In this document: piece by piece, positions 12,318 through 17,995 of the stretch
How positions within the stretch are numbered: position 1 is the first letter of the stretch
Layout of the letters: every line of letters begins with the position of its first letter
IMG/VR virus record: IMGVR_UViG_3300030329_006558
Location: 1 to 25,517 of that record
Length of the DNA: 25,517 nt
Source of the DNA: a virus
Direction: 5' to 3' (one strand)
Translations under genes and position numbers: made by a program
The notes under the pieces: model-generated
What the model was told of the DNA's origin: nothing
Database searches by the model: none
What the model saw: the letters and a program-made list of their open reading frames with translations, nothing else

Positions 12318-14741
12318 ATGGAGCCAGATACCAAACCCAATTTTACTCCACGGGCGCAACAAGCCCTTCGTTTTTCTAAAGATTTGGCCCGCTCTGCGGG
12401 GGAAAACACGGTACTTGCAGAACATCTTTTAGTTTCTCTTTTGTCGCAAAGCGGAGGGATTCTTTACGAGATAATTAGCTTATTGAGTTTTGACGCCAAG
12501 GCCTTAAAAAGCACGCTCTTAAAAAACTTGGATAAAAAAAAATTAAAACCTGCTGATACGTGTTTTTTTGATCCCGAAGTAGAGGGTATTATTAGATTGG
12601 CTCAAGACAGCTCTATCCAATTTGATCACAATTATGTCGGGGTAGAGCATCTTTTTCTTGGCGTAGTTAACCTCAAAAAGAAATCTTTGTTGAAAACATT
12701 TTTAGACTTAGATTTAGATTTAAAAGCCATCGCTACCAAAATAAAACTTTATTTTACCGATGCTACCCAATTTACTGAATATGAAGAAGTACATGAAAAC
12801 CCCGCATCACTTCCTACTGTTCCCAAGAGTAAAGAGCATCTAGAAAAATATGGGGTAAATTATAATGCCTTAGCTCTTCAAGGTAAATTTTCCAAATTAA
12901 TACTTAGAGAGACTGAGATTTCTAAATTATGTGAAGTTTTATGTTGTAAGACTAAAAATAGCCCTCTACTTTTAGGTGATCCAGGAGTGGGGAAAACCGC
13001 TTTAATTGAAGGGCTTGCCCAACGTATAGTTGCTGGTAGTGCCCCTGATTTTTTACTTCCCGCTATGATTTATGGAATTGATTTATCGGCGATGGTAGCG
13101 GGAACCAAATATAGAGGGCAATTTGAAGAAAGGCTAAAAGGTTTAATAAAAGAAGTTAAATCGGATCCCAATATTATACTTTTTATTGATGAGCTTCATA
13201 TTTTAGTAGGAGCTGGAAGTGCCGAAGGAAGCATGGATGCCGCTAATATTTTAAAACCCATGTTGGCTCGAGGTGAAGTTAGATGTATTGGTGCCACTAC
13301 ATTTAAGGAATACAAAAAAAATATAGAAAAAGATGGAGCGTTATCTCGTCGCTTTAAGCCCATTACAGTTGAAGAGCCTTCTCCTGCTGATGCTTTAAAA
13401 ATACTTCAAGGCGTTGCCCCTTCTTACGAAAAATTTCATTCAGTTAAGTTTAAGTCGCCTATTTTACAAAAAATTGTTGATTTATCTGTGCGGTATATTA
13501 AAGAAAGCGCGCTTCCCGATAAAGCTTTAGATATATTAGATCAGGCCGCTGCAAAATGTAAAATTGAAAATTTTCAACGACCTCCTAGTGCTCAGGACGT
13601 AGAGCGCAAGATAGATATATTAATGAATAAACCTGACTCTCCTGAAGCAGATAAAATCATGGAGAATATAGATGATTTGTTTGAGGAATATAAATCCATC
13701 TTAAATGACTGGAGCGCAGAAATAGAACTCAAAGAAGTAGCGGTAGAAGAGCGTCATATTTGCGAAGTAATTGCTGAAAAAACAGGTGTCCCCGTCGGAC
13801 AGCTAAGTAAAAGCGAAAAAGATAAACTAATTAACCTGCCTCAAATTATTACTAAGCGTGTTATAGGCCAAGACCATGCTGTCGAGCCCTTGGCGGACAC
13901 AATGTTGCGCAATTCCATACGCTTAACTAAGGAGCGTCGGCCCTTGGGGTCATTTTTGTTTCTTGGCCCAACAGGAGTGGGAAAAACTTATTTAGCTAAA
14001 GTTTTAGCTAAAGAAATGTTTGGCGACGAAAAGAATCTTATTCACATTGACATGTCGGAATATTCGGAAAAAATTAATGCGTCCCGTTTAACAGGAGCCG
14101 CTCCAGGATATGTGGGCTTTGATGAGGCAGGACAATTAACCGAGCAAGTTCGCAAAAAGCCTTATTCCGTAATTTTGTTTGATGAAATTGAAAAGGCTCA
14201 CCCTGATATAATTTTGCTTTTATTACAAATATTAGAAGAAGGGCGTTTAACTGATAATGTCGGTAAGGCCGCAAGTTTTGAAAACTGCATCATTATCGCT
14301 ACGGGTAATTTTGGAAGTGAATTACTTTCTAAAAAAACAATGACTTTCGGTAGTGCCACCGAAGAAGCGCGTGACCCCGAAGACCTTAAAGATGAAATAA
14401 CAGAAGCTGCTAAGAAATTTTTTAAGCCTGAATTTGTAAATCGTTTAGATGAAATAATTTTATTTAAAAACCATTCTTTAGATACTCTAAAAAAGATTTG
14501 TAAAATTGAACTTCAGCCACTTCACAAAAGTCTGCAAGCTCGAGGAATTAAATTTAAAGTATCTCCTTCTGCGATAAATTTATTAGCTCAAGAAACGGAG
14601 GAACAAAAATTCGGATGCCGTCCTTTAAAAAAGATTATTCGCGACCAAATTGAAACTCCCATCGCTAAATTAATTTTAACCGACTCGCCTTCCTCTATAC
14701 AAGTTTCCTCTAAAAATAAAAAAATAAATATAAAATCATAG
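12318..14741 (+). CDS. clpC: ClpC/ClpA-like AAA+ unfoldase
   Basis: An 807-residue Hsp100 protein. The N-domain (about 1-150) shows the double Clp_N repeat (RAQQALRFSKDLA; ...VGVEHLFLGVV). AAA-1 has Walker A LLGDPGVGKT (217-226) and Walker B ILFIDEL (about 286-292). A short middle region (about 55-60 residues) fits ClpC better than the long ClpB middle domain. AAA-2 has GPTGVGKT (549-556) and VILFDEIEKAH (about 617-627), ending with NRLDEIILF and a GCRPLKK sensor-2 region. The loop where ClpC carries the ClpP-docking tripeptide reads KKTMTFGSATEE, so a canonical IGF/VGF is not obvious. It should unfold substrates for a host protease or act as a disaggregase. The gene follows the polymerase after 19 bases. 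ClpC is preferred over ClpA on the middle region only. Confidence 0.88.
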   Translation: MEPDTKPNFTPRAQQALRFSKDLARSAGENTVLAEHLLVSLLSQSGGILYEIISLLSFDAKALKSTLLKNLDKKKLKPADTCFFDPEVEGIIRLAQDSSIQFDHNYVGVEHLFLGVVNLKKKSLLKTFLDLDLDLKAIATKIKLYFTDATQFTEYEEVHENPASLPTVPKSKEHLEKYGVNYNALALQGKFSKLILRETEISKLCEVLCCKTKNSPLLLGDPGVGKTALIEGLAQRIVAGSAPDFLLPAMIYGIDLSAMVAGTKYRGQFEERLKGLIKEVKSDPNIILFIDELHILVGAGSAEGSMDAANILKPMLARGEVRCIGATTFKEYKKNIEKDGALSRRFKPITVEEPSPADALKILQGVAPSYEKFHSVKFKSPILQKIVDLSVRYIKESALPDKALDILDQAAAKCKIENFQRPPSAQDVERKIDILMNKPDSPEADKIMENIDDLFEEYKSILNDWSAEIELKEVAVEERHICEVIAEKTGVPVGQLSKSEKDKLINLPQIITKRVIGQDHAVEPLADTMLRNSIRLTKERRPLGSFLFLGPTGVGKTYLAKVLAKEMFGDEKNLIHIDMSEYSEKINASRLTGAAPGYVGFDEAGQLTEQVRKKPYSVILFDEIEKAHPDIILLLLQILEEGRLTDNVGKAASFENCIIIATGNFGSELLSKKTMTFGSATEEARDPEDLKDEITEAAKKFFKPEFVNRLDEIILFKNHSLDTLKKICKIELQPLHKSLQARGIKFKVSPSAINLLAQETEEQKFGCRPLKKIIRDQIETPIAKLILTDSPSSIQVSSKNKKINIKS

Positions 14742-17582: not shown

Positions 17583-17995
17583 GGGGGCGTAATGGATTCG
17601 ACTCATGTTGGATACTTTTGCCGCAAGCAGGAGTGGGCTGGCTCCTTAAAAAGCCCGTGGTTTATAAGTGCCAAAACTCAACTTATACAAGGTCTTCTTG
17701 ACCGCTTTAATCCTGCCAAGAAGGTTGCTTCTAGCAAGATTATCGCTCGTAAGAGCGTTGCGCGTCAGCTGGCTGTTGCAGCATAAGCTGCCCCTTTTCT
17801 TTTTGGACGCAGATAAAATTAGAAGAGGACGACATCTGCACAAACAGAAACAGTTTACTTGTATCATAAACTGTAAATAAATGAAACAAGAAGTTGGATG
17901 TTAATATCATAACTTTAAAAAAAATTAACTAAGCTTGTAGAAACAGAAGATTGAAGACGATGAGGACGCGGGTTCGACTCCCGCCGCCTCCACCA
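17583..17995 (+). ncRNA. ssrA: One-piece tmRNA (SsrA RNA)
   Basis: A complete transfer-messenger RNA of about 413 bases. The acceptor stem is GGGGGCG (17583-17589) with CGCCTCC, a G3-U70 pair (the alanine identity element) and an encoded CCA end (17993-17995). The tmRNA signature TAATGGATTCGAC follows the acceptor, and the T arm is GCGGG-TTCGACT-CCCGC. Helix 2 GCAAGC can pair with GCTTGT near 17933. PK1 is GGAG...CTCC with GGGCT...AGCCC (about 17630-17656). The resume codon is inferred as GCC at 17670, 13 bases after PK1, with U-5 and A-4 before it as in E. coli. The ORF ends at TAA 17784-17786 in the loop of GCAGC(17778-17782)/GCTGC(17787-17791). Three downstream pseudoknots can be paired: 17793-17800/17821-17828 with 17809-17814/17834-17839; 17850-17857/17867-17874 with 17858-17862/17886-17890; 17891-17895/17911-17915 with 17900-17905/17924-17929. 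Confidence 0.96.
17670..17786 (+). other. Predicted tmRNA tag reading frame (38 residues, ends AVAA)
   Basis: Translated from the inferred resume codon, the tag starts AKTQLIQGLL and ends SVARQLAVAA, followed by TAA in the H5 loop. It has eight Lys/Arg and one Asp. Usual tags are about 10-25 residues; I know of none this long. The last residues, with AVAA, are the usual protease-recognition type end. A later resume codon would shorten the tag, but the spacing after PK1 and the A-4/U-5 pattern favour this one. Confidence 0.65.

Follow-up and report, generated by a model that had tools for sequence, protein, structure and literature searches.

The window, by which we mean the whole 25,517-base stretch of DNA analysed here (an IMG/VR virus record), contains at positions 17583-17995 of the plus strand an RNA that the initial annotation took for a phage-borne one-piece tmRNA with an unusually long, basic tag. 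This raises the question of whether the RNA is a genuine tmRNA, whether so long a frame is really the one that is read, and what a tail of this kind would do to the proteins that receive it.

Identity and anatomy of the RNA

The Rfam covariance model for tmRNA, RF00023, matched the window at exactly 17583-17995 over the full length of the model (positions 1-374) with 127.3 bits (E = 8e-50), and at this score, against a gathering score of 47, the RNA counts as a tmRNA. The match delimits a one-piece tmRNA (ssrA) gene whose mature RNA includes an encoded CCA; it is full-length and collinear, its 3' part not coming first, which bears out the one-piece assignment, and RF04321, the model of the permuted two-piece tmRNA, found no match in the window. 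Of the two programs by which the initial annotation had proposed to check the RNA, the covariance model thus recovered it in full, while ARAGORN called no tmRNA in the window.

Around the tmRNA are genes for a UvsX/RecA-like recombinase, a DnaB-like helicase, a primase, DNA polymerase III alpha and a ClpC-like ATPase, and a GMP reductase/IMPDH-type enzyme is also encoded nearby. Because phage replication genes adjoin the tmRNA, and because the window is an IMG/VR virus record, the claim of phage origin is supported. No close cultured relative was found among 50,697 phage records: DNA polymerase matches were below 60% identity and in no case extended over 80% of the query, and what matched the tmRNA in these records was restricted to the tRNA-like end. 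Metagenome bins were unusable as a guide to the host, given that four different bins were named. On the sequence evidence we regard the window tmRNA as confirmed to be real, complete and phage-encoded, from an uncultured phage.

Related IMG/VR phages were collected by scans with the window DNA polymerase (75 loci) and with ClpC (54 loci), and an RF00023 search of the whole kin records yielded 41 full-length tmRNAs; a second round, for which a pattern of PK1 and another DNA polymerase served as seeds, added 13 more. With the window this makes 55 tmRNAs, and as the tag of L448 was left unread there are 54 read tags, 45 of them distinct. Structural conservation was assessed over the first 42 sequences and over six distinct tmRNAs of the window type.

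The 5' strand of the acceptor stem, GGGGGCG (17583-17589), pairs with CGCCTCC (17985-17991), G3-U70 included; the stem is fully paired in 42 of 42 sequences, with a G-U at pair 3 in every one, and pairs 5 and 6 show compensatory changes among the six window-type tmRNAs. The 3' CCA is present (one kin tmRNA ends in AACA instead), the D-loop-like GGATTCGAC of the tRNA-like domain (17594-17602) is invariant in the window-type alignment, and the T arm, GCGGG-TTCGACT-CCCGC (17968-17984), is paired in 42/42, with compensatory change in four of its five pairs within the window type. The pseudoknot PK1 (17629-17656; stems 17629-17634/17641-17646 and 17635-17639/17652-17656) is kept throughout the 42. 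Helix 5 is the hairpin GCAGC-ATAA-GCTGC (17778-17791), with the stop codon TAA (17784-17786) in its loop; an equivalent hairpin, with the stop in or at the loop, exists in all 42, and helix 5 shows compensatory change among the window-type tmRNAs. The acceptor with G3-U70, the CCA, PK1 and the loop stop had all been predicted, and all were recovered.

As for the further pseudoknots that had been predicted, PK2 (17793-17839; CCTTTTCT/AGAAGAGG and GCAGAT/ATCTGC) was upheld, its second stem being invariant and paired in all six window-type tmRNAs and its first having 71% of cells paired. PK3 (about 17851-17890) and PK4 (about 17891-17928) are possible, in that interleaved stems can be drawn in a region where the Rfam alignment is uncertain; among relatives, L440 too allows a PK3-like knot, and both L440 and L274 allow a PK4-like one whose second stem has a compensatory change. 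Over the six window-type tmRNAs, 92.8% of cells in the named structure are paired and the covariation exceeds that of every shuffle, a control that leaves relatedness in.

Helices are also present at the start of the tag frame and within it. A hairpin absent from the initial annotation's list, TATAAGT-11-ACTTATA (17663-17687), has the resume codon in its loop; in the six window-type tmRNAs 100% of its cells are paired, two pairs varying and staying paired, and against shuffled codons its z score is 2.4-2.9. Many other tag groups have comparable helices (z > 1.5 in 28 of the 45 distinct tags of the phage kin compared). Of the two small hairpins that had been pointed out, the GNRA-type CGCTC-GTAA-GAGCG (17744-17757) persists in five of the six window-type tmRNAs and shows a single compensatory exchange, G-C to A-U, whereas CTTCTTG/CAAGAAG is poorly kept.

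The tag, its exchange, and the phage unfoldase

The tag frame, AKTQLIQGLLDRFNPAKKVASSKIIARKSVARQLAVAA, runs for 38 codons from the resume codon GCC at 17670 to 17783, has a net charge of +7 and ends AVAA before the stop, in agreement with the length, charge and ending given by the initial annotation. All six distinct window-type tags have exactly 38 codons, with charges of +7 to +9, and because homologues (five other distinct kin tags) carry the same 38 codons the frame is fixed. Known tags had been put at about 10-27 residues, which is too low, the published range being 8-35 (PMC8012679, review), yet the 38 encoded residues of the window still fall outside it. Among 101 tmRNAs that ARAGORN identified on unrelated viral contigs, a sample bounded by what that program can call, the median tag has 12 residues, the longest 31, and the median charge is -2; one tag only, a doubtful one, reaches +3 or more.

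Within the clade the distinct tags are 19-23, 31-34, 38, 40 or 41 residues long, with net charges from -11 to +11, and form families of basic 20-mers, basic 31/32-mers, basic 38-mers and acidic 34- to 41-mers. Tags above 35 residues make up 11 of the 54, and the longest, of 40 and 41 residues, are in L294 and L439. More distant kin (L437, L444 and L447) bear further tag types, such as GNNKIVSFRKPNYSSKTVAFAA and GKNKVVTFRKSAKVARKASLAAA, which we take to be somewhat like cyanobacterial tags.

The reading we favor, and hold to be very probable, is that this is a functional phage one-piece tmRNA whose long basic tag would be added to stalled proteins as a protease mark, and whose gene is mobile. 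The processed tmRNA would be charged with alanine by the host alanyl-tRNA synthetase via G3-U70, would be bound by host SmpB, and would enter ribosomes stalled during infection and take over the nascent chain; the ribosome would then resume at GCC 17670, append the 38 encoded residues to the alanine carried by the tRNA-like part, and terminate at the stop in the loop of helix 5, TAA 17784. The resulting tail, long, lysine/arginine-rich, probably unstructured and ending in small hydrophobic residues (AVAA), would mark the protein for an AAA+ protease in the cell, and the clade would keep several tag families while the tmRNA gene moves between phages. The best reading, in short, is an ordinary trans-translation RNA with what may be called an unusually long, selected, exchangeable charged degron. 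SmpB was not found in 42 kin records, many of them fragments, by a search that detected it in 10 bacterial genomes, and because of this absence the host protein is presumably used and is the likely partner of the window tmRNA.

Exchange of tags is seen when tag types are laid on the DNA polymerase tree, which requires 21 label changes ('none' being counted as a label) against a minimum possible of 6 and a shuffled mean of 36.8, so that the clustering of labels still exceeds what chance would give. The sister phages L229 and L230, in each of which the tmRNA sits close to the unfoldase, carry wholly different tags, GNKSRIQAYSPQSEQLALAA and GEGYYSIKELLEAATEEYDSLVQFEQAEELEMVA. With the tmRNA of the more distant phage L440 that of the window shares 87% identity, and with that of the nearest relative, L273 (G004), 67%; the corresponding identities are 65% and 71% for the DNA polymerase, and 44% and 57% for the unfoldase. 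The gene also differs in position, lying downstream of the unfoldase and far downstream of recA in the window, and in L443 immediately preceding the recA region. The simplest reading of these comparisons is that the tmRNA gene has passed from phage to phage.

The ClpC-type double-AAA+ unfoldase gene (12318-14741, plus strand), whose best solved relatives are ClpC and whose product has an N domain and two AAA+ domains with Walker motifs present, is a candidate, if unproven, partner of the tag. Were the tag read specifically by this unfoldase, working on host ClpP, the phage would possess a self-contained tag-and-degrade system and would thereby control which proteins are removed. Consistent with this, a search of 75 records of the first kin set, the window among them, recovered the unfoldase in 73, the other two being fragments of 9.8 and 13.4 kb; a ClpP-docking tripeptide, [ILVMF]GF, is conserved in nearly all kin; and in 17 of 41 phages the tmRNA follows the unfoldase on the same strand within 5 kb, where random placement predicts 1.4, the distance being 77-222 nt in six. 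These proximity counts are not independent, however, because the phages are related, and in other kin the tmRNA is located elsewhere. Moreover, tag and unfoldase similarity do not co-vary once DNA polymerase distance is removed (partial Mantel -0.10 for the N domain, -0.19 for D1, 0.01 for D2): the same tag type is found with N domains of merely 22-33% identity, and sister phages with unfoldases 71-86% identical bear different tags. The docking tripeptide of the window unfoldase is MTF, a departure whose only counterpart is the ISF of G004, and in these two unfoldases ClpP docking may have been lost or changed. The ClpP-like genes of three kin (G001, G023 and G027) were dropped as protease partners, since their best match is the head-maturation protease family (PHROG 94). 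Given this lack of co-variation, the changed docking tripeptide and the head-maturation-like character of the ClpP-like genes, a dedicated phage tag-unfoldase pair is unsupported, and we consider it unlikely. ClpP-fold serine proteases with long N-terminal extensions were noted in three kin (e.g. L314:1288-1983 and L313:1255-2028), again with PHROG 94 as their best match.

Selection on the tag frame

The initial annotation had allowed that related tmRNAs might lack a conserved frame in this region; such a frame was found, extending from 17670 to 17783. For five of the six window-type tags, the sixth (L273) being omitted as too diverged for ungapped comparison, pooled pS is 0.33 and pN 0.10, a pN/pS of about 0.30, and values of 0.25 and about 0.3 were obtained for the basic 31-codon and acidic 34-codon groups. 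Variable columns among the five (n = 37) are enriched at the third codon position (19, P = 0.005) and depleted at the second (6, P = 0.006), in a test that assumes independent columns; the distinct window-type tags, six in all, are also few. In the long-tag groups selection persists with little change if the six C-terminal codons are excluded. A placement test on the single pair of window and L274 was not significant (1024 of 5000), and in the window compared with L273 alone purifying selection was not seen without realignment. Taken over the relatives, these substitution patterns show the tag frame to be kept by selection.

Selection along the whole frame, with the C terminus not alone, and the extreme net charge of the tags would also be expected if the tag were not mainly a degron, and the charged tail instead altered solubility, location or nucleic-acid binding, or were itself a functional peptide; changed targeting and a functional peptide were possibilities raised in the initial annotation. 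The acidic 34-mers, which look like amphipathic helices, point the same way. The basic tags, however, give no amphipathic signal and match no Pfam family (no convincing Pfam match was obtained for any tag), and C termini across the clade stay degron-like, with ALAA in 32 of 54 and mostly AVAA, AAVA, EMVA or xMAA in the rest. We therefore regard a role other than degradation as the main function of the tag as quite improbable.

A further concern was that the real tag might be shorter, the upstream open frame being a product of chance or of RNA-structure constraint. Since parts of the frame form small hairpins, its conservation could indeed be structural in part. On the other hand, the distance from the end of PK1 to the resume codon is 10-14 nt in 42/42 sequences (13 nt in the window) while the stem sequences vary, the resume codon falls at position 88-98 in all 54 read tags, and the same start position leads to degron-ended frames in the 54 sequences. 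Over the upstream part of the frame, silent changes also exceed amino-acid changes. A resume codon far downstream, a possibility that the initial annotation had named as fatal to its proposal, was looked for and is ruled out by the PK1 spacing together with selection across the upstream part, and the wider notion of a shorter tag is highly improbable. That the frame belongs to an ordinary small gene overlapping the tmRNA, as the 64-residue ORF from ATG 17592 might suggest, being in frame with the tag and mechanically open in the window, can practically be set aside, since in several kin whose tags run to 38-41 codons, stops break the frame ahead of the resume codon.

Known tmRNAs, their detection, and shorter RNAs

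The window tmRNA resembles the bacterial one-piece tmRNA (ssrA; RF00023) in its tRNA-like domain with G3-U70 and CCA, its PK1, resume codon, helix-5 stop, PK2 and possible further pseudoknots, and in the small hydrophobic C terminus of the tag, and departs from it in a strongly basic tag of 38 residues (41 residues in one relative), beyond the published limit, and possibly in presenting its resume codon from a hairpin loop. A tag of unusual length is also found in Mesoplasma florum, where it has 27 residues, is not strongly basic and is paired with Lon. The likeness to the M. florum tmRNA/Lon system lies in the long, unusual tag, which in M. florum is matched to a particular protease; the window tag differs in being longer and strongly basic, and in showing no co-variation with a phage-encoded unfoldase. 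The E. coli and M. florum tmRNA systems have been compared (PMC9097571).

Phage tmRNAs as such are known, from mycobacteriophages Bxz1, Cali, Wildcat and others and Bacillus phage G (PMC4131195), from Methylophilales phage Melnitz (PMC9004378), and from huge phages (PMC7162821). The window tmRNA shares with them that it is phage-encoded and that most, as far as examined, come without their own SmpB; the Melnitz tmRNA is a permuted, two-piece molecule (PMC9004378), whereas that of the window is one-piece. What is new here is not the kind of tmRNA but its tag, which exceeds the published length range, has a strongly basic character, is under selection and can be exchanged.

ARAGORN was used to assign the tmRNAs of huge phages (PMC7162821) and to type phage tmRNAs in the Melnitz paper (PMC9004378). 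Applied to the first 42 clade tmRNAs, it read the tag correctly in 13, wrongly in 12 and not at all in 17, so that 29 of 42 were missed or misread, and the right tag was never given at 34 residues or more. Because the program of these surveys misses or misreads long tags, phage tmRNAs are probably under-counted and the known range of tags under-stated. Tags longer than 8-35 residues, strongly charged in either direction and under selection, show that in phages the length and charge of the tag can evolve freely, and the apparent exchange of tags among related phages, by way of their tmRNA genes, offers a natural experiment on what tags need. More tentatively, and with considerable doubt, we suggest that exchangeable long charged tags might be selected to match host or phage proteases and so set the fate of stalled proteins, and that the apparent size limit, given tags of up to 41 residues, might in part be an artefact of detection.

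Shorter RNAs were also encountered. Besides a full tmRNA, one kin phage of 211 kb carries a 73-base mini-tmRNA (L279:1501-1573; G027:C1:8632-8704) consisting of the tRNA-like domain only, with a paired acceptor including G3-U70, a T arm and CCA, and no tag domain. A comparable molecule, limited to the tRNA-like domain, occurs in mycobacteriophage DS6A, and tmRNA is inhibited by a molecule of similar kind (PMC4131195). On unrelated viral contigs, other short matches to RF00023 (L012:655-732, L021:5315-5398, L013:176-235 and L008:5115-5246) likewise have a fully paired acceptor including G3-U70 and little or no mRNA-like domain; it is possible that these four are decoys of SmpB or of alanyl-tRNA synthetase. 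Finally, manA RNA (RF01745) was found in two kin phages (L124:14441-14653 and L123:6110-6320), and a GOLLD RNA (RF02032, 322 bits) at L055:6680-7086, on a viral contig that also bears a tmRNA.
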